Below are positions 5,818 through 38,736 of a stretch of DNA of 47,868 bases, piece after piece (positions within the stretch are counted from its first letter, which is position 1; the number at the start of each line of letters is the position of its first letter). The DNA comes from an uncultured Clostridia bacterium (GTDB taxonomy: Bacteria > Bacillota > Peptococcia > Peptococcales > Peptococcaceae): NCBI GenBank assembly GCA_944391625.1, contig CALXUG010000020.1, forward strand, positions 1 through 47,868, written 5' to 3'. A program made the translations under genes and the position numbers. The notes beneath the pieces are model-generated. The model saw only the letters and a program-made list of their open reading frames with translations, was not told where the DNA came from and searched no databases.

Positions 5818-5868
5818 AGCAGAGCAGTTATATAGAGAGATCCATATAATTTGCTCTGCTTATTTTTT
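5818..5868 (+). terminator. Rho-independent terminator after AP1
   Basis: AGCAGAGCA (5818-5826) pairs with TGCTCTGCT (5852-5860), the stem is extended by GTTATAT/ATATAAT, and a T-rich tail follows. It separates AP1 from the transporter at 6162, which therefore needs read-through or its own promoter. Confidence 0.8.
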
Positions 5869-5898
5869 GACCGAATTTCTATTATTTTATACTCTATC

Positions 5899-6038
5899 GG
5901 ACAATATCTGTTGCACCGTCCACACGCTGCTCTGGACAGCAGCTGCACGTATTTTTGTCGCTTTGGACTTCGTCCAGCTCCATAAAATACCTTTGCCGCA
6001 GTCCATCCAGAGGTGGACTTTGTGCAAAGATATTGCCC
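5899..6038. repeat. Nested palindromic repeat (family B), copy 3
   Basis: The outer arms GGACAATATCTGTTGCAC (5899 on) and GTGCAAAGATATTGCCC (6022-6038) are inverted. Inside are GTCCAC/CTGGAC arms and a GTATTTT...TGGAC-TTC-GTCCA...AAAATAC hairpin. Both ends match the copies at 47603 and 47798 closely, while the middle differs. It sits between AP1 and the DASS gene and is noncoding. Confidence 0.7.
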
Positions 6039-6161
6039 TCTTTTCTAATAATTTTGATAAAGGCTATTGCCAATGAAGTGTAAGTTTTTTTAAAAGTCGT
6101 TTTTATAGAGTAGATACAGCACGAAATTATAAACAATACATAGATTTGGAAAGGAAGATGT

Positions 6162-9499: not shown

Positions 9500-9621
9500 G
9501 AATATATAAAAGAACTTTATATAAACGAGCTCATAAAAAAGTTTCTTTCAATAACATGGTAAAACAGGATCGGTATTATTGTATGGCATGAAAAGTTTTG
9601 CAGAAACAGGAGGCGAAAGCT

Positions 9622-11010
9622 ATGTCGAACGAACAAACAAAGGCAGGATGTGCGTATTTTGATAATATGAAGCAGATAGGAATCAAACATAAGCACATGT
9701 TTTGGATTTTTTCAGTATGTTATTTTTTTGATATGATGGATATGAATATGTTCGGCTCTATTGCATCGTCGGTGCAGGCCAGCTTTAACCTGACCAATGA
9801 GCATATCGCGCAGTTATCTTCGTTATCGTTTTATGGGATGTTTTTTGGCGGGCTGTTGGGCGGCTGGATGGCGGATAAAATCGGACGAAAAAAAGCGTTG
9901 CTGTATAATGTGTTGATTTTTTCTCTGGCGTCTTGGGGAAATGCCTTATTCAGCAACTATACGGTGTTTGCAATTTGCAGATTTCTGACAGGATTTGGTG
10001 TAATCGGGATGAATATTATTGCCATGGTTTACATTGCAGAAATGATGCCGGCTCATTCCCGGGGGAAATATCAGGGATTGATGGCAGCCATGGGATCGTT
10101 GGGCGTACCTTTTGCGATTATATTTTCGGCAGTGGTTGTACCACGCAGTCCTGAAGCGTGGAAAATTATGTTTATGTTAGGCGGTCTTGGTATCGTATTA
10201 TTCCCGATTGGTTTGAAATGGTTGTATGAAAGCCCCAGATGGTTGGTGGGCAGAGGCCGTTACGAAGAAGCGGACAGAGTGGTAGAAACCATGTCTGGCG
10301 AAGCATCTCATCTGGCTGAATTGGGAACCGTCTGCGTAGAAGCAAAGGTTAGCATGTTGGAAACTTTAGGATTTTTATTCAGTAAAAAACAGATTGGCAG
10401 TACAATAGCGTTGGCGATTATGGCAATTGGCTGTGTTGTAGGCGGCTTTTATATGGCCAACTGGATTGTGGTGATTTTGGTGCAGATGGGCTATGATTTA
10501 CAGACTGTACTGACCTTCTCTATTTTGGGTTGTTTCGGGGCGCCGTTGGGTGACTATATATCTTCTAAAGTTTCGGATATGGGCGGACGTAAGATTCCTA
10601 TTGTCGTTATGCTGTTTTTGGCGGCTGCAATGTGTGTAATCAGTGGTTTGATGCCGACTGTATTGGCTGGTACAGCAGCAGTCGCAGGCTATATGATCAT
10701 GAATCTGTTCCGTGCAGCTTGCGCAACTGGTGCGACTACCATGTATTGGACCTATCTGGCAGAAAATCTGCCAAACAAATACCGCAGTACCGGGACCGGT
10801 TTGATTATGTCTCTGTCCAGAGTATTGATTGGTGTTGTAACACCGACTGTACCGGTACTGATGGCTATGCAGGGTGTCAGTCCAATGTTCAATGTTTCTG
10901 CTGCCAATTCCTTGTTCTATGTGATTCCGGCAATTATTTGTCTGATCTGGGGCGGTAAGACAGCGCAGAAAACATTGGAACAGATTGAGGCGGAAGCAGC
11001 AGCCAAATAA
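9622..11010 (+). CDS. Major facilitator superfamily transporter
   Basis: A 462-aa protein with 12 predicted membrane segments. The MFS loop motif GGWMADKIGRKKALL lies between helices 2 and 3, and YIAEMMPAHSRGKYQG and the YESPRWLVGRGR stretch resemble the aromatic-acid:H+ and sugar-porter branches. AGGAGG (9608-9613) fixes the ATG at 9622. It shares a promoter box with AP2 and faces the LysR gene across a bidirectional terminator. It probably moves the AP2 substrate or product, taking the place that DASS transporters have beside AP1 and AP3. Its substrate is unknown. Confidence 0.88.
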   Translation: MSNEQTKAGCAYFDNMKQIGIKHKHMFWIFSVCYFFDMMDMNMFGSIASSVQASFNLTNEHIAQLSSLSFYGMFFGGLLGGWMADKIGRKKALLYNVLIFSLASWGNALFSNYTVFAICRFLTGFGVIGMNIIAMVYIAEMMPAHSRGKYQGLMAAMGSLGVPFAIIFSAVVVPRSPEAWKIMFMLGGLGIVLFPIGLKWLYESPRWLVGRGRYEEADRVVETMSGEASHLAELGTVCVEAKVSMLETLGFLFSKKQIGSTIALAIMAIGCVVGGFYMANWIVVILVQMGYDLQTVLTFSILGCFGAPLGDYISSKVSDMGGRKIPIVVMLFLAAAMCVISGLMPTVLAGTAAVAGYMIMNLFRAACATGATTMYWTYLAENLPNKYRSTGTGLIMSLSRVLIGVVTPTVPVLMAMQGVSPMFNVSAANSLFYVIPAIICLIWGGKTAQKTLEQIEAEAAAK

Positions 11011-11191: not shown

Positions 11192-12091
11192 TTATATATG
11201 CTGCAGAACAGAAGTTGTGATATCAATAAATGTCTGATACAGCGTATTGGAGGGTGAGTAGTCTGCTTTACGGCAGATCAGACAGGCTGTAACCGGTTTG
11301 GCATCCACAACGGGGATACAGCAAAATTCTTTTTTAGGATATAGCAATTTATAAGCTTGGTAAGGCATCAGGCAGACCGTTCTGTTCTCCATCATAAATT
11401 TCTGGTGAATGCTTGTATTGTTGGAGATATGAAGGCAGGAGTCATCTGATATAGCGCTGTTGCTGTAAGTGTACATGGTCTGTTTCACATTGGCAATATC
11501 CTGAAATGAAAGAATTTTTTCAGTAGAGAGCGGATTATTTTTAGACATGACACAAACCAGTTCGTCCTTGTAGAGTTTTTGAAAATGGAGCGGAACATCT
11601 GAATTCTTTTTTACGGTTGCCAGCGGCTCTGTCCAGCCTTCCAGAAAGCTTAGCAGACCGAAATTCAATTTTCCCTCTATGATCAGCTGTAAGATTGTTT
11701 CTGCCGAATGTTCCTGCGCATAAAGGATAATATCGGGATATGTATTATGCAGTTTGAGTAAAAGTTCGGTTAAAAGTGTGCTGGTTGCCAGCGGTGCAAC
11801 ACCGAGTGTCAGTTTTCCGCTGATTAGTGGCTGGGATGCTCCGTTAAAGTGCTGCAGCAAGGTGTTATACTGTGCAATCATATCGATTGCATGGGTAAGT
11901 ACGTACTTTCCATCGTCTGTCAGGCTGACACCGGTTTTTGAGCGGTTTAAAATGGTGCAGTTCAGCTCGTTTTCCAGGTGTTTGATGGATTCGCTGACAG
12001 CCTGCTGACTGGAAAACATGCGCTTGGCTGTTGCATTAATGGAATTGGTTTTAGCAATATCTATGAGATATAGCAACTGGTCGGAATGCAT
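11192..12091 (-). CDS. LysR-family transcriptional regulator (LysR-2)
   Basis: The protein has 299 aa. The helix-turn-helix occupies residues about 1-60 (INATAKRMFSSQQAVSESIK, LNRSKTGVSLTDDGKYVL), followed by the effector-binding domain. AGGAGGG precedes the ATG. It is divergent from AP2 and convergent with the MFS gene. Both neighbours carry the same TTGTTAGACAAAA promoter box, so LysR-2 most likely co-regulates transporter and enzyme. The effector is unknown. Confidence 0.9.
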   Translation of the reverse strand: MHSDQLLYLIDIAKTNSINATAKRMFSSQQAVSESIKHLENELNCTILNRSKTGVSLTDDGKYVLTHAIDMIAQYNTLLQHFNGASQPLISGKLTLGVAPLATSTLLTELLLKLHNTYPDIILYAQEHSAETILQLIIEGKLNFGLLSFLEGWTEPLATVKKNSDVPLHFQKLYKDELVCVMSKNNPLSTEKILSFQDIANVKQTMYTYSNSAISDDSCLHISNNTSIHQKFMMENRTVCLMPYQAYKLLYPKKEFCCIPVVDAKPVTACLICRKADYSPSNTLYQTFIDITTSVLQHI

Positions 12092-12391: not shown

Positions 12392-14482
12392 ATGGCAAGA
12401 GAAGCAAGCACTGAAAAAGTTATGGTATTGGGGATTGACGCATTGGACCCACGGTTAACCAGAAAATATGTAGATATGGGCATTATGCCGGCAACAGCAG
12501 AGTTAATCAAACGGGGTTCTGCCCGTGAAGATTTGGTCTTGCTGGGCGCAATGCCGACTGTAACCCCACCGCAGTGGACCACACTGGCAACAGGAGCATA
12601 TCCTGAAACCCATGAAATTACCGCGTTCTTCCGGCAGGGCGGCGATTTGGACCTGGTTGATGTGAATTTCAGTTCTCTCAACTGTAAAGCGGAACAGATG
12701 TGGAATATTACAGCAGAAAATGGCAAAAAAACACTGGTATGGCACTGGCCGGGAAGTGCATGGCCGCCATCCTCCGACAGCCCTAATCTGCATGTGGTAG
12801 ACGGCACCAGCCCGGGGAGTGTTAATATGAGTACGGCGCAGTTAGATACCGAGTATCTGGTTGTAGCCAGTCCTAATAATGTAAAGGTTGCTTATCGCGC
12901 AGCAGCGGCCAATGGCAGCGAGGTGCCATGTGTTGTAACCGGTATGGATGAAGAAGACACCGGTTCCGGTTTAAATGTGGCGGATACATTTAAAGCAGTG
13001 GGCGGAGATGGATTCCCATTATATATTTACGATCCGCTGGTAGGCGGTCAGGGCGGCTATATTGAACAGCCGATTGATGCAGCTTTATCACCAATTCAGG
13101 ATGCAGATGATAAATGGGCTGCCGCTCCGGCTGGCGCTAAGGAATTCACCTTATTATATTCCGGCGGTTTGATTCGCCGTCCGGCGCTTATTTTGCAAAA
13201 TGAAGCCGGTGTTTATGACAGCGTGGCAATTTACAAAAATAAAAAGGCAACAGAACCAATGGCAGTGATTCATCGTGATGAATACGTACGTGATATTTTT
13301 GATGAAGCCATCAAAAACGATCAGCCGGTAAGAGTAAACCGGGATATGCGTATGATGGAACTGGCGGAAGACGGCAGCTATGTAAAACTGTGGGTTTCTT
13401 CTGCAATGAACAGTGACGTGAATATGATGTGGCATCCAAAAGAACTGCATCAGGAAATTTTAGATAATATCGGTTATCCACCACCAACTGCAACTCTGAC
13501 CATGGGAGATAAAACCTTAATGTTGGATTGCATGAACTTATGCTGGGAACATACTATGGATTGGCAGTCTGATGCATTGAACTATCTGATGGAAAACGAT
13601 GGCTATGAAGTTGTCTTCTCTCATTTCCATGCACCGGATTTACAGGAACATATGTTTATTCGTGATATGAAAAAAGGCCGCCCAAATTGTTCTCCGGCAG
13701 AATACGAAGAAATTATGCAGACTGTATATAAACAGGCTGACCGTTATATTGGAAAATTCCTGCACTTTTTGGATGAAGGATGGACCATTTTGCTGGTATC
13801 CGACCATGCGCAGGTTTGCCCAACCTGGGGAATTCGCGGCTTAGGGGATACCGGGCTGAATATTCAGCTGATGGAAGAGCTGGGCTTTACTGCACTGCAA
13901 AAAGATGAAAATGGTGAAACCATTTTTGTTGAACCAGTACCCGGTTATAAATTACCACGGATTGACTGGACCAAAACCAAAGCAGTGGCAAACCGTGAAA
14001 TGCATATTTATTTGAACTTGAAAGGCAGAAATCAGCATAAGCTGCCGGATGGCACAATCATTGACGGTATTGTAGATCCAGCGGACCAGTATCAGCTGGA
14101 AGAAGAAATTATGACTGCTTTGTATGGTCATAAAGATAAAGAATCCGGTCAGCGTATCATTGCATTTGCTTTACGTCGGAAAGATGCCAGACTGATGGGG
14201 CTGGGCGGTGAATATCCACAATGCGGCGATATTATTTATTGTATGGCTGAAGGGTATGAACATGACCATGATGACAGCCTGTCTACCTCTTGGGGTGAAT
14301 GCGATACTTCTGTATCTCCGATTTTTGTGGCAGCAGGACCGGGGATCAAAGAAGATTTCTACACAAAACGGGTTATCCGTCAAGTTGACGTAGCGCCAAC
14401 CATTGCAGCATTGCTGGGTATGCGGATGCCAGCGCAGTGTGAAGGTGCTCCGGTTTATCAGATTTTGGCTAATGAATTTTAA
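12392..14482 (+). CDS. AlkP-superfamily hydrolase, COG3379-like (AP2), with an altered metal ligand
   Basis: A 696-aa paralogue of AP1, colinear throughout. D16 (GIDALD), nucleophile T58 (PTVTPPQWTTLATG), D416 and H420, and D471 and H472 (SDHA) are kept. The last zinc-ligand histidine is replaced by W634: the segment reads STSWGECDTSVSP where AP1 has TTHGYWGSTVSP. Nearby histidines (YEHDHDD, just upstream) might substitute, or activity or metal use may have changed. There is no signal peptide, so it is cytosolic. AGGAGG precedes the ATG. It heads a transcript with the zinc-ribbon, ABC ATPase and 315-aa genes, broken by a hairpin at 14572. LysR-2 probably regulates it. Confidence 0.85.
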   Translation: MAREASTEKVMVLGIDALDPRLTRKYVDMGIMPATAELIKRGSAREDLVLLGAMPTVTPPQWTTLATGAYPETHEITAFFRQGGDLDLVDVNFSSLNCKAEQMWNITAENGKKTLVWHWPGSAWPPSSDSPNLHVVDGTSPGSVNMSTAQLDTEYLVVASPNNVKVAYRAAAANGSEVPCVVTGMDEEDTGSGLNVADTFKAVGGDGFPLYIYDPLVGGQGGYIEQPIDAALSPIQDADDKWAAAPAGAKEFTLLYSGGLIRRPALILQNEAGVYDSVAIYKNKKATEPMAVIHRDEYVRDIFDEAIKNDQPVRVNRDMRMMELAEDGSYVKLWVSSAMNSDVNMMWHPKELHQEILDNIGYPPPTATLTMGDKTLMLDCMNLCWEHTMDWQSDALNYLMENDGYEVVFSHFHAPDLQEHMFIRDMKKGRPNCSPAEYEEIMQTVYKQADRYIGKFLHFLDEGWTILLVSDHAQVCPTWGIRGLGDTGLNIQLMEELGFTALQKDENGETIFVEPVPGYKLPRIDWTKTKAVANREMHIYLNLKGRNQHKLPDGTIIDGIVDPADQYQLEEEIMTALYGHKDKESGQRIIAFALRRKDARLMGLGGEYPQCGDIIYCMAEGYEHDHDDSLSTSWGECDTSVSPIFVAAGPGIKEDFYTKRVIRQVDVAPTIAALLGMRMPAQCEGAPVYQILANEF

Positions 14483-14571
14483 TTTGGTTAATGAATTTTA
14501 AGGTTAAAGAATTTCAAATAGAACCCAGGGATTTAATACAGTTCACATAAAGCACATAACGAAAGAAGGGA

Positions 14572-14610
14572 AGGGACTATCGCAATAGCGTTTATATTGC
14601 GGCAGTCTCT
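14572..14610 (+). terminator. Hairpin between AP2 and the zinc-ribbon gene
   Basis: AGGGACT-AT-CGCAATA pairs with TATTGCG-GC-AGTCTCT. The tail is only moderately T-rich (TTCTGTTATTT), so it may be an attenuator or RNA-processing stem that lowers expression of the downstream genes rather than a full stop. Confidence 0.5.
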
Positions 14611-14642
14611 TTCTGTTATTTGGAAAGAAGGACGTGAAAAAG

Positions 14643-15107
14643 ATGAAAAAAGAAAAATCGTTGCGGGTGGAACGGCTCAAACAACGGGCTAAATATTGTT
14701 GTTGCCGATATTGCGGCGGTGAATTGCATGTACGGCAGATTGTGTTTCACACCCAGGCTGCCGCCAGAATCGAATTATACTGTGATCAGTGTCAGAAGAT
14801 AGAATATGGTGTTGAGCAAGAGGCTTATGCCAGCGCCAGAGCATTTGTAACAGCGACAGCGTTTAATCATTTTCCTGAACTGGAGGATAATGAACAGCGG
14901 TTTCAGATGAATGTGGCAAAGGTATGCAATTTAACCAGCTGGCAGCTGCGCTATCTGGGACTTACGGGAGAAAACGGGTTTATTGTGCCGACGCAAATAA
15001 AAGAATCTGGTATGGATATGTGTACGACAATAGATGAGGACAGTCTGGAACAATTATTGGAGGAGTCAGGCTTATGGATGGATCAATCATTACAGCAAAA
15101 GGATTAA
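14643..15107 (+). CDS. Small CCCRYCG zinc-ribbon protein (ZnR-1)
   Basis: A 154-aa soluble protein that I do not recognise as a named family. Two CxxC knuckles (C21/C24 in CCCRYCG and C47/C50 in YCDQC) suggest one zinc site. After them come a conserved IEYGVEQEAY and LEDNEQRFQMNVAKVCNLTSW. The same order and motifs recur in the protein at 32953-33309. An in-frame GTG at 14634 is an alternative start; ATG 14643 has the better distance from AAGAAGGA. Its end overlaps the ABC ATPase gene by 34 bp, so the two are co-translated. A role as partner or regulator of the ATPase is inference. Confidence 0.7.
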   Translation: MKKEKSLRVERLKQRAKYCCCRYCGGELHVRQIVFHTQAAARIELYCDQCQKIEYGVEQEAYASARAFVTATAFNHFPELEDNEQRFQMNVAKVCNLTSWQLRYLGLTGENGFIVPTQIKESGMDMCTTIDEDSLEQLLEESGLWMDQSLQQKD

Positions 15108-15865
15108 GCTGCCAGTGGGGCGAGCGTTATCGAATCAAACAGATTGACTGGGAGATTGAGGAAAAAAGCCGATGGATTGTACTTGGCATGAATGGCAGCG
15201 GAAAAACAACATTGTTAAGTATTTTGGCCGGCTATCAGGATTACAGCCATGGCACATTGTTGTATCGTGGAACCGATTATCGGGAACTGGATATTTTGAG
15301 TTTACGCAAACAGATGGGATGGATCAGCAATTCTTATTTCGATCGCATTTATCAGCACGAATCGGTGTTAGACCTGGTACTGTCGGGACTGAGCGGAACG
15401 CTTGGTTTGGAAGACGGTTGCATAACAGACGCACATATTCGTAAATTGAAACGGTTATTATTGCAAGTCGGTTTAGAGGACAAAATGGATAGTCCCTATA
15501 ATTGGCTTTCAAAGGGAGAACGGCAGAATATATTGATTTTAAGGGCGTTGTTGGGGCAGCCGGAGGTTCTGGTACTGGATGAACCAATGACTGGTCTGGA
15601 TGTGGTAAGCAAGCAGAGAATGATGGAATTTGTGCGGGGAATTGCGCAAAAACGTCAGCATACAATGCTGTATGTAACCCATCATTTTGAGGAAATATCG
15701 CCGGAATTGTTTGATAGATGTCTTCTGTTAAGGAATGGTCAGGTCTATCAGACGGGTTCGGTAGCAGAAGTAATCAACTCGGAAACGATCAGTGATTTTC
15801 TGCAGAAAAAAGTGCAGGTTGTGCAAATGAAAAACGGTTATTATCAGTTGGACTTTCAGCGGTAA
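15074..15865 (+). CDS. Orphan ABC-type ATPase (ABC-1)
   Basis: A 263-aa single nucleotide-binding domain: Walker A GMNGSGKTT (38-46), signature LSKGERQ (145-151), Walker B VLVLDEP (165-171) and H-loop VTHHFEE. No membrane-spanning partner is encoded nearby. The overall pattern is like the ModF/PhrA-type ATPases that also lack a dedicated permease. The signature has K where LSGGE is usual (LSKGE), a feature shared with its paralogue at 32141 (LSKGQ). It is translationally coupled to ZnR-1. It might energise an unlinked permease, or act as a soluble regulatory ATPase. Confidence 0.8.
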   Translation: MDGSIITAKGLSCQWGERYRIKQIDWEIEEKSRWIVLGMNGSGKTTLLSILAGYQDYSHGTLLYRGTDYRELDILSLRKQMGWISNSYFDRIYQHESVLDLVLSGLSGTLGLEDGCITDAHIRKLKRLLLQVGLEDKMDSPYNWLSKGERQNILILRALLGQPEVLVLDEPMTGLDVVSKQRMMEFVRGIAQKRQHTMLYVTHHFEEISPELFDRCLLLRNGQVYQTGSVAEVINSETISDFLQKKVQVVQMKNGYYQLDFQR

Positions 15866-15884: not shown

Positions 15885-16832
15885 ATGACCGGATCATTAA
15901 AAGATGTCAGCAGTGCAGAAATGGTGCGCAGTTTGGCAGAGATGAATTGTTTTGAGCAAGACTGTACGGTGTATGGGTATTCGTGGAAGTCGGAAACAGG
16001 AAAAAGAATGTATCGCATGAGTGAAGATGCGCTGCTGATACGGCAATCCTTTGAGTCACATTTTCTGCATGCTTATGCAATGACACCGCTGCAAAGCTGG
16101 ACACGAAAAGCGATTATAAAAGAGGAAACAAAAGAAGACTTATTTTTATCCTTAAAATTAGAATTGGCTGGACAGCTGAAGTCAGATTTTAACGAAACTT
16201 ATTTTTCTGGTTTGCAGAATATATTGGAAGCGCCGGGGGATAATCAGGCAGAACCGCTTTTGCTGCAGTGGAAGGAGGAGCTGGACGGTTATTTTGAGGA
16301 GGACAGCTTACAGTTATTTACCGGCGCTGTTGCGATTGCCTATGTTACAAAGCATTTACAGAAATGGCGGTATCAACAATTGATGCAATGGATTCAGCAG
16401 ACAAAAAAGCAAATGACAAACGGCATGCAGATTCAGGACAATTTTACACGTACCTTTTACGGAGTGGCTTGCAAACCGCCGCAGGCAACGTCTTATCGTT
16501 ATCTGTACAATGCCAATCAAAATGTCTTGTATGATCAGATAAAAGAGTTGGATGAAAAAGGAACGTGGCATACGCCGGTTTATTCTAAATGTTATTGGTA
16601 TCATAAAAGCGGTGATTTATCCAATGTGCGGAAGTTGTTTGAAGCGGATTTAAAAGAGCTTATGGATGAAACCTATTTGAATCGTATGATGGCGATACAG
16701 AGTTTTTCCAGTGCGATACCGCAGCAATTGTGGGACAGCAATCTTCAAAGGGTAAAAACGGAATGTTCTCCGATTGCATACAAAGGGTTTCTTTATTGGG
16801 GGCAGCGCTGGAATGTAGGGTTTATAGAGTAA
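15885..16832 (+). CDS. Uncharacterised 315-aa protein
   Basis: I recognise no family. It is predicted soluble and mostly helical, with no signal peptide or clear metal motif. It is rich in aromatic residues (for example WHTPVYSKCYWYH and GFLYWGQRWNVGF at the end). A GAGGTG ribosome site precedes ATG 15885, 19 bp after the ABC-1 stop, so it belongs to the AP2-ZnR-ABC transcript. No counterpart is present beside AP1 or AP3. A function tied to AP2 chemistry is possible but unsupported. Confidence 0.6.
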   Translation: MTGSLKDVSSAEMVRSLAEMNCFEQDCTVYGYSWKSETGKRMYRMSEDALLIRQSFESHFLHAYAMTPLQSWTRKAIIKEETKEDLFLSLKLELAGQLKSDFNETYFSGLQNILEAPGDNQAEPLLLQWKEELDGYFEEDSLQLFTGAVAIAYVTKHLQKWRYQQLMQWIQQTKKQMTNGMQIQDNFTRTFYGVACKPPQATSYRYLYNANQNVLYDQIKELDEKGTWHTPVYSKCYWYHKSGDLSNVRKLFEADLKELMDETYLNRMMAIQSFSSAIPQQLWDSNLQRVKTECSPIAYKGFLYWGQRWNVGFIE

Positions 16833-17102: not shown

Positions 17103-19040
17103 ATGGCAACTGCATACGGCGGTTATATGGGCAAGGTGCTGAAGGTGAACCTGACCACGCAGCAGGCAGAGGAATATCCGTTTTCCGACAGGGACAGGGA
17201 ATTATATATTGGCGGCAAAATGATGGCTGCTAAAATTTTGAGCGATCATCTGCGAGGGAATGAGAAGGCTTTTTCCGATAACAATCTGCTGGTGATCACC
17301 ACCGGACCGCTGACCGGTACAGGAGCGCCCAGTTCCAGCCGATTTAATATTTCTACGCTGTCGCCGCTGACCGGTTATGTGACGTCGTCCAACTGCGGCG
17401 GTAATTTTGGTTATTATTTGAAAAAGGCCGGACTGGACGGGCTGATTCTGTGCGGACACAGTGAAACGCCGGTGTGGCTGGAGCTGTGCAATGGACAGGC
17501 AGTGTTTCATTCTGCCGATGGGCTGTGGGGGCAAAAGACGGAGCAGACCCAGGCCATGCTGGATGATGCGCTGCGACTGCCCAATGGCAGAGTGCGCAAA
17601 AATGGTAAAATCTGCATTGGTCCGGCAGGGGAACATCAGGTGCTGTATTCCTGTGTGGTATCCAATGAGCGGGTGGCAGGCCGGGGCGGCGCCGGCGCTG
17701 TGATGGGCTGGATGAAGCTGAAAGCGGTGTGCGCCAGCGGTACGCAGACGGTGCAGGTGAAAGAGCCGGAACGGATGATAACCCATAATCAAAAATGGTT
17801 CCGGTATCTGCGCAAGCATCCGCTTACCGGCAGTCAGCTGCCCCAGCTGGGTACGGCAGGGCTGGTCAGCGCTATGCAGATGAAGGGGATTTTATCCACC
17901 AAGAACTACAGCGCCGGACAATATGCAGACTTTGAGCAGATTAGCGGTGAGCGTTTGGCAGAGCAGTATCACATTGTCAATAAGGGGTGCCTCAGCTGTC
18001 CCATTCGCTGCGCCCGCACGGTGGAAATTGACGGCAAGCAAGTAAAAGGGCCGGAGCTGGAAACGCTGGTGCTGCTGGGCAGCGGTATTTGCAATTCTAA
18101 TCTGGAAGCCATTTTGCGCTGGAACTATGAGCTGGATCAGTTGGGCATGGATACTATTTCCTGCGCCAATACCATTGCTTATGCCATGGAAGCCAACGAG
18201 AAGGGACTGTGGAATAACGGCCTGCAGTTTTCTAATATAGAAGAATTATCCCAATTATTTGAACAGATTGCCCATCGGCAAGGCATTGGCGATGAGTTGG
18301 CTGAGGGCAGCAAGCGATTGTCAGAAAAATACGGCGGCAAAGACTTTGCCATTCACGCCAAAGGGATGGAGCTGGCTGCGTATGAGCCCCGCAAAGCGGT
18401 CGGCCTTGGTTTGGGCTATGCGGTAAGCAATCGGGGCGGATGTCATTTGAACGGCGGTTATCTGGTCATTCTGGAAGGTCTGGGTTTATCCATTAACCCC
18501 ACCACTTATCATGGCAAAGCGGATTTGACTATGATGTTTCAGGATTTGATGGAGATGATATCGGCCACCGGGCAGTGCTTGTTTACCAGCTATGCCTTTT
18601 TCCCGTCGCCGTTGATGACCCATCCCAACAGCTGGTATACGCGGCTGGCCAATGGGGTGCTGCCTTACAGCGGTCCGGTGGTGCGGCTGATTAATAAATA
18701 TCCGCAGATTGCCCATCTGCATCTGCCGGTATTTCACCACACCAAAGCCTTTGAGTATGCTACCGGTATGAAGATGCCCTTTGGCAAGTATATTCGCTGC
18801 GGAGAGCGGGGCTATAATCTGGAACGGCAGATTAATATCCGGTTTGGAGCCGATGCCAGCAAGGACGGTCTGCCCAAACGGCTGACAGCCACATTGCAGA
18901 ATGCTGCCGATCCCCAGTCCAAGGTTCCGTTGGAAAAACTAAAACGGGTGTATTATCACGCCAGAGGCTGGAACCGCAACGGACTGCCCAAAAAACGGCT
19001 GCTGAAGAAGCTGAAGATTGGAGTGGATGACCATGATTGA
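17103..19040 (+). CDS. aor: Aldehyde:ferredoxin oxidoreductase (tungsten-pterin)
   Basis: A full-length 645-aa AOR-family enzyme that oxidises aldehydes to acids, or runs in reverse, with ferredoxin as partner. The four cluster cysteines are present: C296, C299 and C303 (CLSCPIRC) and C492 (ATGQCLF), at almost the same places as in the Pyrococcus enzyme. The N-terminal YIGGKMMAAKIL, TGPLTGTGAPSSSRF and GRGGAGAVMG stretches fit the tungstopterin-binding domain. GGAGGTG precedes the ATG. It is cytosolic and oxygen-sensitive by family. A MoaD/ThiS-like gene overlaps its end, followed by a ferredoxin and an alcohol dehydrogenase, which suggests an aldehyde/alcohol module. Which aldehyde is unknown. 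Confidence 0.92.
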   Translation: MATAYGGYMGKVLKVNLTTQQAEEYPFSDRDRELYIGGKMMAAKILSDHLRGNEKAFSDNNLLVITTGPLTGTGAPSSSRFNISTLSPLTGYVTSSNCGGNFGYYLKKAGLDGLILCGHSETPVWLELCNGQAVFHSADGLWGQKTEQTQAMLDDALRLPNGRVRKNGKICIGPAGEHQVLYSCVVSNERVAGRGGAGAVMGWMKLKAVCASGTQTVQVKEPERMITHNQKWFRYLRKHPLTGSQLPQLGTAGLVSAMQMKGILSTKNYSAGQYADFEQISGERLAEQYHIVNKGCLSCPIRCARTVEIDGKQVKGPELETLVLLGSGICNSNLEAILRWNYELDQLGMDTISCANTIAYAMEANEKGLWNNGLQFSNIEELSQLFEQIAHRQGIGDELAEGSKRLSEKYGGKDFAIHAKGMELAAYEPRKAVGLGLGYAVSNRGGCHLNGGYLVILEGLGLSINPTTYHGKADLTMMFQDLMEMISATGQCLFTSYAFFPSPLMTHPNSWYTRLANGVLPYSGPVVRLINKYPQIAHLHLPVFHHTKAFEYATGMKMPFGKYIRCGERGYNLERQINIRFGADASKDGLPKRLTATLQNAADPQSKVPLEKLKRVYYHARGWNRNGLPKKRLLKKLKIGVDDHD

Positions 19041-19257
19041 GGTGCAGTTATTTGGTGTGGCGCGGTTAAAAGCAGGTGTGCCGTCCTTTACTACCAATGT
19101 GCAGACCTTAGATGAACTGAAGGGTATGCTGCCCGGTATCAGCCGCAAAGAAGCCAGTCAGCTGGTGGTGCTGGTCAATGGCAGCAGCGTCGGCAAAAGA
19201 TATCGGTTTCAGGATGGCGATACCGTTGTGTTTTTGTCGCCGGCAGGAGGTGGTTGA
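19033..19257 (+). CDS. MoaD/ThiS-like sulfur carrier protein
   Basis: A 74-aa beta-grasp protein ending in AGGG, close to the GG tail that is adenylated and thiocarboxylated in MoaD and ThiS. LSP before the tail and DGDTVVFL are typical. The start at 19033 gives the best spacing from GGAG; ATG 19027 is possible. It overlaps aor by 8 bp. Within an AOR operon it most likely supplies sulfur for the tungsten pterin cofactor rather than for thiamine. Confidence 0.85.
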   Translation: MIEVQLFGVARLKAGVPSFTTNVQTLDELKGMLPGISRKEASQLVVLVNGSSVGKRYRFQDGDTVVFLSPAGGG

Positions 19258-19258
19258 G

Positions 19259-19480
19259 GTGGAAACGGTAAAGAAGAAAAAGCGGCCTGTGATTGATAAT
19301 CGTACCTGCGCAGGATGTTCTCTTTGTGTAGAAAACTGTCCGCTGGACTGTTTGCAGATAGAGCCGCCCAAGTATCATGGAGATATTCATACCATTGCCA
19401 GATTGATGGCGCCGGAACGCTGCACCGGCTGCGGTATCTGCGCCAAGGCGTGTCCGATCAGGGCCATTACAATCAAGTAA
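19259..19480 (+). CDS. 2[4Fe-4S] ferredoxin-like protein
   Basis: A 73-aa protein with two cluster motifs, C17-x2-C20-x2-C23-x3-C27P and C55-x2-C58-x2-C61-x3-C65P. The start is a GTG at 19259 after AGGAGGTGG, one base past the stop of the MoaD-like gene; the sequence upstream in this frame overlaps that gene and is not conserved-looking. It is the probable electron acceptor or donor of the AOR. Confidence 0.88.
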   Translation: METVKKKKRPVIDNRTCAGCSLCVENCPLDCLQIEPPKYHGDIHTIARLMAPERCTGCGICAKACPIRAITIK

Positions 19481-19517
19481 AATTGACAATATGAAACCTA
19501 GAAAGAAGGAACATCGT

Positions 19518-30673: not shown

Positions 30674-32107
30674 TCAAAATGGAAATGGCACAAAACCATT
30701 AAATAGACCAATGAGATTCCAATATGGCACAGCTACAATAAGAATCCAAATAAATACTATAACACTTCTAATAGTAAATATTTTTATAAACTGTTTCATG
30801 CTCATATATCCAAATGCGTAAAGGAAAACATATAATGCACCTTCATAAGGGAGCAACACATTATTTAGGCCATTAATTAATGCATACATGACAGGAACTG
30901 GATAAATCCCCGCTGAGGAAATTACCTCAGCAACAGGTCCTGAAATCATTGCAATACCTGCCATTGGTGTTAAAATTAAATTTATAATGTATCCTAGTAT
31001 ATATGCCATACCGCAATTCATAAAAGGCCCACTACCTAATAATGGTGTCAAAAACTGTCCTATAAGTGCAGCGGATCCTGTATTGTTACCAACTACTCCA
31101 ACGGACATTGTTCCACAAACAAAGAAAATCATTGTGAAATTTATGTTTTTAATTATTTTTTCCGTTTCAAGACCTGAAAACGGAAAAAAACTAATAATGA
31201 CAGGAACCATCAAACAAAGATATATACCCAACCCGTGCCACCTTTGTGTTAATAATAAAATAAATATTAAGAATAGGACAATAGCACCGCTTATTTCTTT
31301 TTTCTCTAGTTTACCTAGTTGCTTATATTCTTCAGCAAAATATTTTTTATTAAATTTATTGGTATATTCTATTTCCGGTTTAAAAAAGAGAATAGTGATA
31401 ATTAGCAGCAAAATGGCGCATGGTAAGAATATGACATTATGATAAATATAATCTAAATAAGATACTTCAAAAGTAAATGTTTGTAATGGAGCAAATCCAC
31501 TAGCAGCAGAATTGCGTATAGTATTTAGTGCAGTATCAAACATCCCATCATAGGATAACATAACACTTAAAGCGGCTCCAGCAATATAGCAAATAAAGAA
31601 AAGTGCTATAGCAGCATTACTTTTAGGCGCAATATTTAAGGCCTTCGATATGCTATATGCAAAAATAATAAATAATGCTCCATTCCCTGGACTCATGTAT
31701 GCTAAAATGATGCCAAAGAACATAATACATGCTAAAATAGCGTTGAAACTGCCACCTAATTTTGCAAAGAAAAAATATGCAATGCGTTTAATGATACCAC
31801 TTTCATCTAAAATGACACCTAGAATAACAGATGCCATAATCATCCAGGCAGTTGACTGTGTCCAAGGTGAAAAAATTTGTGCTGGAGTTCCAAGATTAAA
31901 TACCAAATATGCGAATGGTATAAAAAGAGAAACGGCTAGTACAGAAATTAATTCAAATGCTAACATAAATACTGCAAAAATTGTGATTATAAAAAACAAT
32001 TTGATTTGTGAAGTAAAGTTCTCAGAATATGGAATAAAGCATATGATTGTGCATACAAAAAATGTAAGGAGCCATTTGAGTCGTGTTGTATCAATATGTT
32101 TAATCAT
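30674..32107 (-). CDS. SLC13/DASS-family anion transporter (DASS-C)
   Basis: A 477-aa polytopic membrane protein resembling the 2-oxoglutarate/malate/citrate translocator branch of SLC13. It is more distant from DASS-A, -B and -D than they are from each other: the N-terminus starts KHIDTTRLKWLLTFFVCTII, and the second hairpin reads LILTPMAGIAMISGPVAEVI rather than NNA. GGGGGAA precedes the ATG. It is the third gene of a leftward operon after ZnR-2 and ABC-2 (34-bp gap). AT-rich codon use matches its neighbours and differs from the flanking uvrA and PBP genes. Confidence 0.83.
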   Translation of the reverse strand: MIKHIDTTRLKWLLTFFVCTIICFIPYSENFTSQIKLFFIITIFAVFMLAFELISVLAVSLFIPFAYLVFNLGTPAQIFSPWTQSTAWMIMASVILGVILDESGIIKRIAYFFFAKLGGSFNAILACIMFFGIILAYMSPGNGALFIIFAYSISKALNIAPKSNAAIALFFICYIAGAALSVMLSYDGMFDTALNTIRNSAASGFAPLQTFTFEVSYLDYIYHNVIFLPCAILLLIITILFFKPEIEYTNKFNKKYFAEEYKQLGKLEKKEISGAIVLFLIFILLLTQRWHGLGIYLCLMVPVIISFFPFSGLETEKIIKNINFTMIFFVCGTMSVGVVGNNTGSAALIGQFLTPLLGSGPFMNCGMAYILGYIINLILTPMAGIAMISGPVAEVISSAGIYPVPVMYALINGLNNVLLPYEGALYVFLYAFGYMSMKQFIKIFTIRSVIVFIWILIVAVPYWNLIGLFNGFVPFPF

Positions 32108-32140: not shown

Positions 32141-32953
32141 TTAATACATGATACCAGATAAATCTAGTGGTTGGTTATACATACGAATCGAAACATTATC
32201 ATTTTTCCAAGAACATTTTACCGGTGTATTAAAATATTCAGAAAGAACCTGATCTGAAAAAATATTGATTGTTTTTCCAAAGGCAAAAATTTCACCATCG
32301 CGAATTAGCATAGCATTTTCAAAACATGAAGATATTTCATTAGCATGATGTGTTACAAAAAGAATAGTGATAACAGAACTAGCACATAAAGCTTCTATTG
32401 TTGATATAATTTTGGAGCGAAAGACAATGTCTAAACCAGAAGTTGGTTCATCTAGAATTAAAAGAGAAGGTTTGCTCATGAGCGCTCTCCCTATGAGAAC
32501 ACATTGCCGTTGCCCTTTTGATAATAAATCATACGGAAAATCCATTTTATCGTATAGATGAAACTGTTTCAAAATATGCTTTGCTTTTCTTACATCTTTT
32601 GCTGTAATATCAAATGGGACAGATAACATTCCTGTTATGCCGCTAAGAACAATTTCCAATGCAGTTTCGTGAGAAAAGCATTGATCAAAAAAAGAACTGC
32701 TGACAAAACCAATGTTTTGATATATTTGATAAATTGTATTAGGTGAATATAAGTCGTTTAGAAAATACAATTCACCAGAAGATGGTTTTAAGTATCCTGC
32801 AAGTACATTTAATAAAGTTGTTTTGCCACTTCCGTTATTGCCAAAAACAATCCAATGTTGCCCTGGATATATTTCTATATTAATGTTTTTTAAAAGATAA
32901 GTGTTTCCACTTTTTTGAGACACTTGTTTTGCACTGATTATGGCATCAGACAT
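32141..32953 (-). CDS. Orphan ABC-type ATPase (ABC-2)
   Basis: A 270-aa paralogue of the ATPase at 15074. Walker A GNNGSGKTT lies at 38-46, exactly as there, followed by the variant signature LSKGQRQ, Walker B LLILDEP and VTHHANE. No ABC permease is present; the next gene encodes a DASS carrier, which does not need ATP. Its ATG overlaps the ZnR-2 stop (TAATG), so they are translated together. That fixed pairing across two loci argues that the zinc-ribbon protein and the ATPase work as one unit. The unit's function is unknown. Confidence 0.8.
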   Translation of the reverse strand: MSDAIISAKQVSQKSGNTYLLKNINIEIYPGQHWIVFGNNGSGKTTLLNVLAGYLKPSSGELYFLNDLYSPNTIYQIYQNIGFVSSSFFDQCFSHETALEIVLSGITGMLSVPFDITAKDVRKAKHILKQFHLYDKMDFPYDLLSKGQRQCVLIGRALMSKPSLLILDEPTSGLDIVFRSKIISTIEALCASSVITILFVTHHANEISSCFENAMLIRDGEIFAFGKTINIFSDQVLSEYFNTPVKCSWKNDNVSIRMYNQPLDLSGIMY

Positions 32954-33309
32954 TATAGCACCACCTCATTGTTTTCAGTAGGGTATTTTAGTCCATTTTT
33001 ATCTAACCAGCCTAATGACTTACCACCCCAACTGAGAATATCGCAAACTTTTGCAATATTCAGTTGGTAAGTGCGTTCATTATCCTCTAGATTAAAATAG
33101 TGAGAGAAATCCATCTCATCAACAAAATCTTTTGCAGCTGTGTATATTGCTGGTTCTGTACCGAATTCAATTTTATTACAATTTGGACAATAGAGTTCTG
33201 CTCCAGCACCACCATATTGATTAAATATAACAACGTGAATTGCTAACTTGCTACCACAATAACGACAACAACAACGTTCTGAACGAGATTTCATTTCTTG
33301 TGTTAACAT
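32953..33309 (-). CDS. Small CCCRYCG zinc-ribbon protein (ZnR-2)
   Basis: A 118-aa protein homologous to ZnR-1: CCCRYCG (C15/C18), AELYCPNC (C41/C44), KIEFGTEPAIY, LEDNERTYQLNIAKVCDILSW. It lacks the acidic C-terminal extension of ZnR-1. ATG 33309 follows AAGGAGG; a longer in-frame extension upstream has no ribosome site and is AT-rich noise. It is the first gene of the leftward ZnR-ABC-DASS operon, divergent from LysR-3. The family is not known to me. Confidence 0.7.
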   Translation of the reverse strand: MLTQEMKSRSERCCCRYCGSKLAIHVVIFNQYGGAGAELYCPNCNKIEFGTEPAIYTAAKDFVDEMDFSHYFNLEDNERTYQLNIAKVCDILSWGGKSLGWLDKNGLKYPTENNEVVL

Positions 33310-33699: not shown

Positions 33700-33837
33700 T
33701 CTCTGTAACATAGAAAAGCATTCGTATTTCATAGCGATAGAAGGGATTTTCCATGGCCCTATAATGTACTTAACATTTCCATATTTTTCTGTTTTTCTCA
33801 TGACTATCTTATAATATGCATTTGTGAGGTGATCTTT

Positions 33838-34803
33838 ATGCGTCTTGAGCAATTAATATTTGTGCAAGAAGTAAATAAAACAAAATCTATGAGTACAGCT
33901 GCTGCTAATCTGTTTGTTACGCCACAATATATCAGTAAAGCAATTAAACAGTTGGAGGATGAATTATCAGTAGCAATATTCAGACGTTCAAAAAGTGGAA
34001 CATTTCCCACTTTGAAAGGTGAGCAGATTTGCAAACTTATTGAAGATATTTTACATCAGATTGATTCGTTAAGCTCTGTAACAGAAAATAACATTAATAA
34101 TCAATGTACTAGAGATACAAAAAAAATTACTATTTATCTCCCACAGATTGTGGACTATATTTTAAAGCCTCTTTATAAAGCTTTCTTACAAAAATATCCC
34201 GATACTACCTTAAACATTTATCAGGAGGAATCGCTTGCACTTCTATTAACTGTGGAAAAAATATATCCTGATATCTTTATACTGAGCCAAGAAAAAGGCG
34301 AAACAGTTTTCATTCAAAATGTTGATCCTTTATATGACGTATATTATCTTTACGAAGACACCCTCTCTTATTGGTGCTTGCCAGGTAATATACATAATGA
34401 AAAAAGCACAGTTCCTATGAAAGCTCTTGCAAAAACTTCAGGGCTAATAGTTTATGCTGATATACGGCAAAAAACTTGTATGATAGAAAAGTTGTTTCTT
34501 AAAAGAGGGTTAATACTGAAACCTCAAATGAAAATAAACAATGTGGAGGAATGTGTGGCCCTGGCATTGATAAACGAAAAGTATGGATTTGTAGAAAGTT
34601 CTCACCTTTCGGATTATTTGCGATTTCAAGAAGACGGGATATGTTTAATGCCGATTCCGTTAAAAGAAAAACCCATTATTATCTACCGTTTGTTTGTAAA
34701 AAAAGATTTGTCTAATGATACTACCACACAAAATTTTTTGTATGCAATAAAAAAAGTGTTTTCCAAAACATTCCGAAAAATAAGTATTTCTACACAATCA
34801 TAA
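33838..34803 (+). CDS. LysR-family transcriptional regulator (LysR-3)
   Basis: The protein has 321 aa. The N-terminal helix-turn-helix (MSTAAANLFVTPQYISKAIK, FRRSKSGTFPTLKGEQI) is followed by an effector domain. GAGGTGA precedes ATG 33838. A TATAAT at 33810-33815 is a likely -10. It is divergent from the ZnR-2/ABC-2/DASS-C operon and directly upstream of AP3/DASS-D, so it can coordinate the two transcription units. The sequence is AT-rich like the rest of the block. Confidence 0.88.
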   Translation: MRLEQLIFVQEVNKTKSMSTAAANLFVTPQYISKAIKQLEDELSVAIFRRSKSGTFPTLKGEQICKLIEDILHQIDSLSSVTENNINNQCTRDTKKITIYLPQIVDYILKPLYKAFLQKYPDTTLNIYQEESLALLLTVEKIYPDIFILSQEKGETVFIQNVDPLYDVYYLYEDTLSYWCLPGNIHNEKSTVPMKALAKTSGLIVYADIRQKTCMIEKLFLKRGLILKPQMKINNVEECVALALINEKYGFVESSHLSDYLRFQEDGICLMPIPLKEKPIIIYRLFVKKDLSNDTTTQNFLYAIKKVFSKTFRKISISTQS

Positions 34804-35105: not shown

Positions 35106-37238
35106 ATGGGAAAAAAACGTGCGATGATGATTGGACTAGACGGTGCCGATCCACTGGTAGTGAAAAAAATGATTCAAGAAGGACGGTTACCAAATTTAAA
35201 ACGAGTAATTGAAGAAGGGGTGGCAAATGATACATTGAGTATGATTGGTGCTTTCCCATCAGTAACTCCACCGAACTGGGCATCCATTGCAACGGGAAAC
35301 TGGCCACGAACCCATGGAGTAACAGACTTTTTTAACCAAACATTAGGTAAAGAATTAAATTTATGCGAATTGAACTGGGATTCTCGTCGTGTAGAATCTG
35401 AACTGATTTGGGAGGCATTCAGTAGAGAAGGAAAACGTAGTATTATGCTCAATTATTGTGAAGCATGGCCACCAAGAATTGAAAATGATCCACATGCAGT
35501 TTATATTGATGGCTCTGGTGTTATTCCATTCATTCGTTGTGAGTTGGATGCGCCTCAGTTAATCCATTTGAAAGAAGGCAATTTCCCAACAGAAGTAATT
35601 CCACATGCTGTGAAAGATAATGCAAACGATTGCATTATCAGTACAGAAATGCTGGAAAAAATGATGGACGGAAGCGAGATTTCAGGAAGTGCAGTTGAAA
35701 CCGCGACTGTAGATGAAGAAAGTGATGATCCATTTATCACAATGCCAATTGTTGAATTTCCATTCCCGATATTAACTCCAAAAGTTGTGGAAAATCAGTC
35801 CGGACCTGGGCATGATGAATGTGATAGAGTAAATGCCGCATTAAAAGCACCAGAAAAATGGAGTGTGGAATTGCCGGAAGGTGCAAAAGTTGCTATGATT
35901 CCATTATGTCAGAGTACCTTAAGACGATTCTTTGTAATAACCAAAAACAAAAATGGAGTTTATGATACCGTTCATGTATATGCCAATAGAAAAACGGAAA
36001 GTCCATTGGGTTCTTGTAAAGTTGGAAAATGGAGTGAAAATATTTATGATACTTATGTAAAAAACAATGTACCGGTGAAAGTATCTTATAAATTACGTGT
36101 TGTGAGCATGGCCGAAGATGGTTCTGATGCCGTAATTGTAATGTCTCATGCTATGGATATTGGCAACGATGATTATTTCTATCCACGTGAAATAGGTCAT
36201 AAACTGTTTAACGATATTGGTGCAATGATGCCACATATCCGTTTGGATGCTTACGGTAAAGAACTAAGTAAGATTGAACTTGAAACATGGGAAAATCTTT
36301 TCAATTGGCATATTGATGCAACAAAATGGTTGTTTAACGAATATAGCGATTGGCAATTATTCTATGTACATTTACATGGAATTGATATTTATAACCACTG
36401 GTATATCAATAAGACATTACCTGGTTGGTCGGATGAATCTGATCGCTACCAAGAAATGCTTTATAAAATGTATGAATTTAATGATAAATATGTTGGCGCA
36501 ATGCTAGAATATTTGGACGATAACACCAACATTATCATTACATCTGACCATGCTGCGATTCCAAATTCTCCTAGCGATGAAAACCCTGGTATTGGTGCAT
36601 TAAGTGGTATTGCCACAAAAGTAATGGAAGATTTGGGGTACACCGTTTTGGTGCCAGAAACAGCATATACTATGAAACCACAAATTGACTGGGAAAAAAC
36701 AACAGCAATTAGTGCAAGATTAACACATATTTACCTAAACTTAAAAGGAAGAGACCCTCATGGTATTGTTGCCCCGGAAGATTATCAAAAAACAGTCGAA
36801 AAAATTATTGAAGATTTATACAGCTATCGTCATCCTGAAACCGGGAAACGCGTTGTTGCATTCTGTATGACCAGAAATGAAATGGAAATGGTAGGTATGG
36901 GAGGACCACACTGTGGTGATATTTTCATGCAGTTAATGCCAACATATTGCGAAACACATGGTAACGTTCCAAGTACTGTTGAACATGAAGGCTATTCTAT
37001 GAACAACTTATGCATGATGATTGGCGGCGACTTCAAAAAAGGCGAAAAAATCCGTCGTATTATTAGAATTACAGATGTTGTGCCAACTTTATGCTATTTG
37101 TGTGACAATAGTGTCCCAAGTAATTGTGAAGGTGGGGTAATTTGGCAAGTGTTGAAAGATTTTACTGAAGAGCAATTTACTCGTAAAGTAAAAAGAAATA
37201 ATATTCAAAAAAATAGATATACACGAATTGGAGATTAA
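35106..37238 (+). CDS. AlkP-superfamily phosphohydrolase/phosphodiesterase, COG3379-like (AP3)
   Basis: A 710-aa paralogue of AP1 and AP2 with the complete metal site: D12 (GLDGAD), nucleophile T54 (PSVTPPNWASIATG), D427 and H431, D481 and H482 (SDHA), H627 (VEHEGYS). The middle insertion differs from AP1: the KTLVWHWPGSSWPP stretch is here RSIMLNYCEAWPP, which may mark a different substrate. There is a basic C-terminal tail of about 25 residues (FTRKVKRNNIQKNRYTR). It has no signal peptide. AGGAGG precedes the ATG. DASS-D follows 73 bp later and is probably co-transcribed; LysR-3 lies upstream. Confidence 0.85.
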   Translation: MGKKRAMMIGLDGADPLVVKKMIQEGRLPNLKRVIEEGVANDTLSMIGAFPSVTPPNWASIATGNWPRTHGVTDFFNQTLGKELNLCELNWDSRRVESELIWEAFSREGKRSIMLNYCEAWPPRIENDPHAVYIDGSGVIPFIRCELDAPQLIHLKEGNFPTEVIPHAVKDNANDCIISTEMLEKMMDGSEISGSAVETATVDEESDDPFITMPIVEFPFPILTPKVVENQSGPGHDECDRVNAALKAPEKWSVELPEGAKVAMIPLCQSTLRRFFVITKNKNGVYDTVHVYANRKTESPLGSCKVGKWSENIYDTYVKNNVPVKVSYKLRVVSMAEDGSDAVIVMSHAMDIGNDDYFYPREIGHKLFNDIGAMMPHIRLDAYGKELSKIELETWENLFNWHIDATKWLFNEYSDWQLFYVHLHGIDIYNHWYINKTLPGWSDESDRYQEMLYKMYEFNDKYVGAMLEYLDDNTNIIITSDHAAIPNSPSDENPGIGALSGIATKVMEDLGYTVLVPETAYTMKPQIDWEKTTAISARLTHIYLNLKGRDPHGIVAPEDYQKTVEKIIEDLYSYRHPETGKRVVAFCMTRNEMEMVGMGGPHCGDIFMQLMPTYCETHGNVPSTVEHEGYSMNNLCMMIGGDFKKGEKIRRIIRITDVVPTLCYLCDNSVPSNCEGGVIWQVLKDFTEEQFTRKVKRNNIQKNRYTRIGD

Positions 37239-37254
37239 ATCAGTTAATTTTTTT

Positions 37255-37280
37255 GTAGCCGATACATGTGTATTGGCTAC
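37255..37280 (+). promoter_or_regulatory. Hairpin between AP3 and DASS-D
   Basis: GTAGCCGATACA pairs with TGTATTGGCTAC (one G-U pair) with almost no loop. It is not followed by a T-run, so it is probably an RNA-stability or processing stem setting the ratio of enzyme to transporter, or a protein-binding palindrome. Confidence 0.4.
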
Positions 37281-37311
37281 AGAAAAATTAAAGTTGAAAG
37301 GAGAGACATTT

Positions 37312-38736
37312 ATGAATAACATAACAATAAAAAAATATATAAATTCTGCAATTGCAATTATTGTTATGATTGGTTTTGGTTACTTACCAGTGCTTGATCC
37401 AATTACACCACTAGGAATGAAAATTTTAGGTATCTTTTTAGGGTGTATTTATGGATGGTTAACTGTGGATGTCTTTTGGCCAAGTATTTTAGGCTTAGTG
37501 CTTTTAGGGCATACTGGATATATGCCTGTCAGTCAAGTGTTTGCGTCGGCATTTTCCAATACAACACTTTTGCTGATGTTGTTTATGATGATGCTCGGTG
37601 GCTTAATTTCGGCTTCTGGTGTAGCTGATGTATTGACGTTAAAATTACTTTCTACGAGAGGGCTGCAAGGGAAACCTTGGATTATAGCGTTTGTATTATT
37701 TGTTGCATCTTTCTTAATATCTGCGCTTTGTGGTGGGGCAGTTGCAGCGGTTGCAATTTGCTGGGTTCTGTTATACAAAATTTCTGCCCAAGTGGGGTAT
37801 AAACCTGGTGATGCTTATCCAATGTTAGTTGCAAGCGGTATCGTTTTCATTGGTTCATGCGGGAACCATGTGTTACCATTCCAGGGCTCTGTTGTCATGT
37901 GTATGGGCTTTTCACCAGTTTCGATAGAATACAGTGCACCGTTTACAATCTTTTCACTTATCTTTACAGTAATAATGATAGCAATCTATATCGTTATTCT
38001 GAAATATATTATTAAACCTGATGTGACACCGATGACCAAAGAATTTAGACTGGACGAATCAACAATTTTTACTGGTGAACAAAAAATTGTATTGGGTATT
38101 GTTACTGTATTATTTCTGCTTTTATTAATTCCAAGTTATTTGCCAGCTACCAATGGATTCAGAATTTTTATCAAAGGCATTGGCGATCATGTGTTAACAC
38201 TTTTGGCATTAGCGCTTGCAAGTTTTGTAATCTATAAAAATAAGTCGGTATCAAATGTTCAAACTATGATGCATGAGGGTGTTGCATGGAATGTATTCTT
38301 TATGGTAATGGCTGCGTTTACCCTTGCAACGGCATTAACCAGTAAAGATACAGGTGTTATTCCATTCATTAACGCAACAATTTCTCCACTGTTTGTTGGT
38401 AAAAGCGAGTTCTTCTTTGTGGCAATCTCCTTAATTATTGCTGCATTTGCGACAAACGTGATTAACAATGCTGTTGTTGCATCGCTCATTGTACCAGTGT
38501 GTACAACAATTGCTATAGAAATGTCGCTTAACCCAGCAATTATTGCAACGTTACTTACTTATGCATGCATGGTCGGTGTTGCATTGCCAACTGGTTCTCC
38601 CGTAGGCGCCATGATGTTCGGAAATAAGGAATGGATTCCTGGGAATAATGCACTAAAGTTAGGTGTTGGTTCCGTAGTGTTCCATACATTGTTGCTAATC
38701 ATAATTGGATACCCATTGGCTATACTAGTATATTAA
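37312..38736 (+). CDS. SLC13/DASS-family anion transporter (DASS-D)
   Basis: A 474-aa polytopic membrane protein close to DASS-A (LDPITPLGMKILGIFLGCIYGW, DVFWPSILGLVLLG). The second hairpin reads NNA (385-387). The ATG at 37312 is used because GAAAGGAGAG stands before it; the open frame reaches back to 37228, overlapping the AP3 stop, but that part is non-conserved and codes across the hairpin at 37255. It is downstream of AP3 and the likely importer for it. Confidence 0.87.
   Translation: MNNITIKKYINSAIAIIVMIGFGYLPVLDPITPLGMKILGIFLGCIYGWLTVDVFWPSILGLVLLGHTGYMPVSQVFASAFSNTTLLLMLFMMMLGGLISASGVADVLTLKLLSTRGLQGKPWIIAFVLFVASFLISALCGGAVAAVAICWVLLYKISAQVGYKPGDAYPMLVASGIVFIGSCGNHVLPFQGSVVMCMGFSPVSIEYSAPFTIFSLIFTVIMIAIYIVILKYIIKPDVTPMTKEFRLDESTIFTGEQKIVLGIVTVLFLLLLIPSYLPATNGFRIFIKGIGDHVLTLLALALASFVIYKNKSVSNVQTMMHEGVAWNVFFMVMAAFTLATALTSKDTGVIPFINATISPLFVGKSEFFFVAISLIIAAFATNVINNAVVASLIVPVCTTIAIEMSLNPAIIATLLTYACMVGVALPTGSPVGAMMFGNKEWIPGNNALKLGVGSVVFHTLLLIIIGYPLAILVY

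Follow-up and report, generated by a model that had tools for sequence, protein, structure and literature searches.

Two loci with an overlapping gene pair

What does a small zinc-ribbon protein do beside an ABC ATPase that has no permease, when the two genes overlap and the arrangement occurs twice in one contig? This study addressed the question in a 47,868-nt stretch of DNA (the window) from an uncultured member of the Peptococcaceae and compared both loci with related ones in other genomes. At locus 1, the gene of Zn1, a long (type I) zinc-ribbon protein recognized from its translation (14643..15107, plus strand; alternative GTG start at 14634), overlaps by 34 nt that of ABC1, a permease-less ATPase of the YlmA/2IHY type identified by profile matches and motifs (15074..15865, plus strand). 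The gene of X5, a third and soluble member with two homologous halves, follows (15885..16832, plus strand) and is conserved beside the ABC gene in the main lineage. At locus 2, the genes of the short (type II) protein Zn2 (32953..33309, minus strand), assigned from its translation and its place in the type II clade, and of the permease-less ATPase ABC2 (32141..32953, minus strand), assigned by family profile matches, overlap by 1 nt. Both pairs were thus found where a preliminary description had placed them, with overlapping starts and stops, and the CCCRYCG motif of both Zn proteins and the LSKG signature of both ATPases were confirmed. The permease was also absent as described: no ABC membrane subunit adjoined either pair, none dedicated to the ATPases was found in the mapped contexts, and only DASS and MFS carriers recurred there as membrane families.

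The surroundings had been described as different at the two loci. Gene order and orientation do differ, but both pairs are set among genes for AlkP-superfamily hydrolases, LysR regulators, and DASS or MFS carriers. The locus 1 cassette comprises an MFS carrier gene (9598..11010, plus strand; MFS_1), which clusters with the MFS genes of other cassettes, a LysR regulator gene (11192..12091, minus strand; HTH_1 and LysR_substrate), and the gene of a type I, NPP-type AlkP hydrolase predicted to be cytosolic (12392..14482, plus strand; PF01663). A hairpin resembling an intrinsic terminator (14569..14621, plus strand; -22.1 kcal/mol, with a T-rich tail) lies between the AlkP gene and Zn1. At locus 2, a DASS-family carrier gene stands downstream of ABC2 (30674..32107, minus strand; Na_sulph_symp, with TIGR00785 below the cutoff), and the cassette includes a LysR gene that clusters with other cassette LysR genes (33829..34803, plus strand), a type II AlkP gene (35106..37238, plus strand; PF01663), and a DASS/CitMHS carrier gene (37228..38736, plus strand; CitMHS).

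Several other features were observed in the window. An additional LysR-AlkP-DASS cassette at 2413-7613 contains no Zn, ABC, or X5 gene, and a CRP-type regulator gene (28191-28817) is divergent from a DASS/CitMHS carrier gene (28967-30418) with no adjoining AlkP gene. An aldehyde ferredoxin oxidoreductase gene (17103-19040) lies 3' of X5, followed by those of a 4Fe-4S ferredoxin (19178-19480) and an iron-containing alcohol dehydrogenase (19491-20720). At 21204-22595, the window encodes a protein of the Schlafen/AlbA_2 type whose C-terminal domain resembles RecG. An Rfam scan of the window returned one tRNA only and no riboswitch.

Members and distribution of the module

All 53 Zn relatives carried the cysteine pattern C-x-C-x2-C-G...C-x2-C, which forms two knuckles with ribbon spacing, and from this spacing we infer that Zn is a zinc ribbon; zinc binding is predicted. 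No Pfam or NCBIfam family matched Zn above its cutoff; the zinc-ribbon families of Pfam matched at E values of about 0.001 or worse only, and a PDB profile search gave weak, chance-like matches. An AlphaFold model of Zn1, computed from few input sequences, had a mean pLDDT of 52 and was too poor for use. The Zn tree separated a short type that occurs without X5 (15 members including Zn2; support 0.993) from the long type that occurs with X5 and includes Zn1, and this split into two lineages was less clear-cut in the ABC tree. Zn2/ABC2 belongs to the minor lineage without X5 and Zn1/ABC1 to the main lineage with it.

The closest solved structures to the ABC protein were 2IHY and 4HZI, which scored 262 and 210 bits in a PDB profile search against at most 177 for any other chain, and 160 and 125 bits in a single-sequence search against 112 for the next. 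By these matches, the protein is a soluble ATPase of the YlmA/2IHY type. The signature was LSKG or MSKG in 38 of 53 cassette ABC proteins, LSQG in three paralogs outside the cassettes, and LSTG in 2IHY. In transporters, the Q-loop glutamine communicates with the permease. Walker A, Walker B, and the H-loop were all intact in the cassette proteins, and this glutamine had given way to other residues, chiefly Ser, Ala, or Asn (His in 2IHY); the combination fits a presumably active ATPase that is not coupled to a permease. Caf16 is grouped with the same YlmA/ModF-like soluble ATPases. The cassette proteins resemble 2IHY and 4HZI in having a single ABC domain, no membrane partner, and, as in 2IHY, no Q-loop glutamine, but they differ in their Zn and X5 partner genes, their SKG signature, and their copy number of up to about 13-15 per genome. 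Each of three genomes checked with the ABC profile also keeps one ordinary copy of the same type without Zn, and these partnerless copies stand beside plsY/gpsA-like genes (in the window's genome, for example, at C6:73280).

Other assignments of the ATPase were also considered. The protein is not a ModF equivalog: NF008186 comprises two ABC domains and at least 459 bits, whereas the proteins here have one domain and scored 113.5 and 126.5 bits. An ABC transporter is defined by a cognate permease gene, and none occurs in the window or the mapped contexts. The PADLOC matches of the ABC proteins, which might have indicated a role in defence, look like generic ATPase similarity, and Zn and X5 match nothing in that collection, so that this role was dropped. 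The 25 best NCBIfam matches listed for the ABC proteins did not include PhnK or PhnL, and PhnGHIJ was not among the annotated genes of the window, the cassette contexts elsewhere being only partly annotated.

X5 is about 315 aa long and has no predicted membrane segment. Its gene lies 3' of the ABC gene in the main lineage and 5' of the Zn gene in a few cassettes. No relative was found in Pfam, NCBIfam, PHROGs, or PDB, the PDB profile search yielding only weak, chance-like matches, and an AlphaFold model from few input sequences (mean pLDDT 37) was too poor for use. The N-terminal and C-terminal halves matched each other in hhalign with an E value of 1.3e-12 (reversed control, 0.09), and two homologous halves would suit a twofold ABC dimer.

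The genome survey for Zn covered Bacillota. Zn genes numbered 12 in the window's genome and approximately 60 across 13 genomes of the same family, with up to 13 in each; a further 47 relatives that were searched had none. Sampling 398 genomes across the phylum brought in one more, distant Zn-bearing genome, and among 83 genomes of its class, the Desulfitobacteriia, five had single copies. These distant genomes carry the complete cassette of AlkP and module, often with an MFS or DASS carrier plus LysR, as expected after transfer. A viral collection scanned with Zn yielded nothing, X5 offered no segment of sufficient conservation for such a scan, and our literature search found no paper on the cassette. 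The named members of the Zn-bearing family are the Peptococcaceae MAGs UBA7185 and RGIG151, the former reported from dairy cattle gut (PMC9863278).

Wherever a contig end did not intervene, the gene maps placed Zn next to an ABC gene of the cassette type, mostly with an overlap or a gap of at most 30 nt; the order was mostly Zn-ABC and, in one branch, ABC-Zn. All 12 Zn genes of the window's genome had an ABC neighbor, which contradicts a chance pairing, and the profile searches proposed in the preliminary description did not find the two genes mostly apart. Within genomes, the pairwise distances of the module members in cassettes with X5 were correlated (Zn-ABC, 0.68; Zn-X5, 0.64; ABC-X5, 0.70; permutation p<0.0005 each). 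The complete pairing, the two gene orders, and the correlated divergence strongly support the functional unit proposed earlier, but in the main lineage this unit consists of three proteins including X5 rather than of two.

The AlkP hydrolase and its cassette

An AlkP gene lay within 6.5 kb of the module in 29 of the 30 contexts with enough flanking sequence, and all 12 modules of the window's genome had one no more than about 4 kb away. Of the same 30 contexts, 24 contained LysR, 24 contained X5, and 27 contained a carrier, which included a main-type DASS gene in 24; three had no carrier nearby. The carriers varied among cassettes between DASS, a second DASS type, and MFS. The neighboring AlkP proteins formed two types, about 30% identical to each other, and 40 of 42 cassettes combined AlkP and Zn of matching type (Fisher 3e-8, an optimistic value since the sequences are non-independent); of the two exceptions, one (L054) has as its nearest AlkP gene that of an adjoining cassette.

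All 18 Zn-bearing genomes found also carried the AlkP family, and the module never occurred in an AlkP-less genome among the Bacillota genomes searched. Of 32 Desulfitobacteriia with AlkP, 27 had no Zn, and the same was true of two other AlkP-bearing genomes from the class of the window. The dependence runs in one direction: the module is tied to the AlkP cassette, but AlkP is not tied to the module. At a finer scale, the distances of Zn, ABC, and X5 were uncorrelated within genomes with those of the AlkP proteins of the same cassettes (r, -0.08 to 0.12). The three module members, correlated among themselves but not with AlkP, therefore have a common history from which AlkP departs at this scale.

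The AlkP proteins matched PF01663 above its cutoff and retained the NPP-type nucleophile Thr and the Asp/His metal ligands without exception. Their closest solved relatives were the phosphonoacetate hydrolase 3SZY, the NPP 2GSN, and PafA 5TJ3 (profile E values, 6e-12 to 3e-8). The cassette AlkP proteins share the catalytic residues of these enzymes but differ in their length (about 690 aa, including a large insertion), their predicted cytosolic location, and their number, 32 full-length paralogs in the 2.97-Mb genome of the window, which is an unusually large expansion of the superfamily. Hydropathy indicated no membrane segment, and the N-terminus begins directly in the catalytic domain. We infer that anionic substrates are imported by the DASS or MFS carriers and then cleaved intracellularly by AlkP.

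Terminator-like hairpins occurred at 15 of 22 junctions between an AlkP or carrier gene and the module (68%), compared with 35% of other junctions (p=0.007). The idea of a conserved attenuator at the AlkP-module boundary was not retained, the difference from AlkP-carrier junctions (68% vs 44%) not being significant (p=0.10).

Possible roles of the module

The repetition of the module beside cytosolic hydrolases suggests an ATP-driven enzyme helper rather than a transporter. We tentatively favor, well short of conviction, a soluble Zn-ABC-X5 complex that acts on AlkP or its substrate, which is proposed because of the analogy to PhnK/PhnL and the pseudo-twofold X5. Zn and ABC, joined by X5 in the main lineage, would constitute a soluble satellite module of the LysR, AlkP, and DASS/MFS cassettes; most likely, an ABC dimer would be capped by the pseudo-twofold X5 and carry Zn, and its ATP hydrolysis may remodel or service the cytosolic AlkP or its substrate. 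In favor of this reading are the invariant pairing, the shared divergence of the three proteins, the steady AlkP neighbor of matching type, the presence of AlkP in every Zn-bearing genome, the soluble ABC type with its intact ATPase motifs and no permease, and the lack of a predicted membrane segment in X5. PhnK and PhnL remodel the C-P lyase core, a soluble phosphonate enzyme, under ATP turnover (PMC9947105). The likeness is that ABC ATPases with no permease are encoded alongside a soluble enzyme of phosphorus compounds, here judged so by homology; however, the ABC subtype differs, the enzyme is an AlkP-superfamily hydrolase, and no PhnGHIJ genes were seen among the annotated genes of the cassettes. 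Moreover, in vivo phosphonate use requires ATP hydrolysis by PhnK/PhnL, whereas AlkP also occurs without the ABC protein. Because many genomes have AlkP without the module, the module is probably dispensable for basic AlkP activity, and the uncorrelated phylogenies of the type I module and type I AlkP within genomes argue against a tight one-to-one fit. The hairpins often found between AlkP and the module also count against action on AlkP.

A regulatory module that responds to substrate, metal, or the energy state by tuning cassette expression, with or through LysR or at the RNA level, is possible but doubtful. LysR genes accompany most contexts (24 of 30), many transcription factors contain zinc ribbons, and the module, often placed behind a terminator-like hairpin, may form its own transcription unit. 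A precedent exists in yeast, where the soluble ABC protein Caf16 is one of the subunits of the transcription regulator CCR4-NOT (PMC6071951). Nevertheless, no significant correlation linked the module and LysR phylogenies within genomes (r, 0.07-0.28), Pfam showed no DNA-binding family in X5 or Zn, and most cassettes already own a regulator.

We consider it unlikely that Zn and the ATPase instead serve AlkP maturation by loading metal into its binuclear active site or aiding its folding. NPP-type AlkP enzymes need two metal ions, the ligand residues are conserved here, the Cys set of Zn is invariant, and the AlkP and Zn types match; however, 27 genomes have AlkP but no module, and zinc in zinc ribbons is usually structural.

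ArsA energizes the secondary carrier ArsB, and the preliminary description had suggested a comparable role toward the nearby carriers. The idea of a soluble ATPase energizing a secondary carrier is shared, but ArsA is not an ABC protein, and the cassettes have exchangeable DASS and MFS carriers with no constant carrier family. A carrier was within reach in 27 of the 30 contexts, and Zn and DASS were somewhat correlated in cassettes with X5 (r=0.50, n=16, p=0.01); conversely, the ABC-DASS correlation within genomes was 0.11-0.14 and not significant, and three contexts had no nearby carrier. Because the same module sits beside unrelated carriers (DASS, the second DASS type, and MFS), this role is weakened and appears improbable: the carriers switch, whereas AlkP is constant and its type tracks that of Zn. 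Least probable is passive co-duplication of the module with the AlkP cassettes, its cellular role being unrelated, which would agree with the strong lineage-specific expansion of the cassettes and with the fine phylogenies uncorrelated with AlkP in the main lineage but not with the matching Zn and AlkP types, the absence of the module from AlkP-less genomes, or the whole cassette in distant genomes.

Action on the hydrolase or its substrate thus remains our preferred reading. A broader version, which we hold to be rather unlikely, would make the module a new class of soluble ABC machine in which the X5 adaptor replaces the membrane domains, remodeling AlkP hydrolases or loading their substrates, and which would have been amplified with a hydrolase repertoire for degrading many phosphorus or sulfur esters in the gut. 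What is new here is the Zn and X5 families, absent from the libraries searched, a soluble ABC subtype whose partners are new, and a cassette that has undergone strong amplification. A soluble ABC ATPase with an enzyme-linked role is rated as an already known kind; the function is a proposal here, and hence no new category is claimed. To our knowledge, soluble ATPases of the YlmA type are widespread and mostly have no known job. A member with two dedicated uncharacterized partners and a tied enzyme, repeated a dozen times in a single genome, offers a concrete partner to test, and the genomes with and without the module constitute a natural experiment. In gut Peptococcaceae, the analysis also exposes an uncharacterized repertoire of carriers and hydrolases, the latter in 32 copies. 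In several cassettes, a thioredoxin-like protein is encoded after X5 (L109, 12372-13934; L095, 7438-7773; L062), and in one genome, a thioredoxin reductase-like gene follows it.
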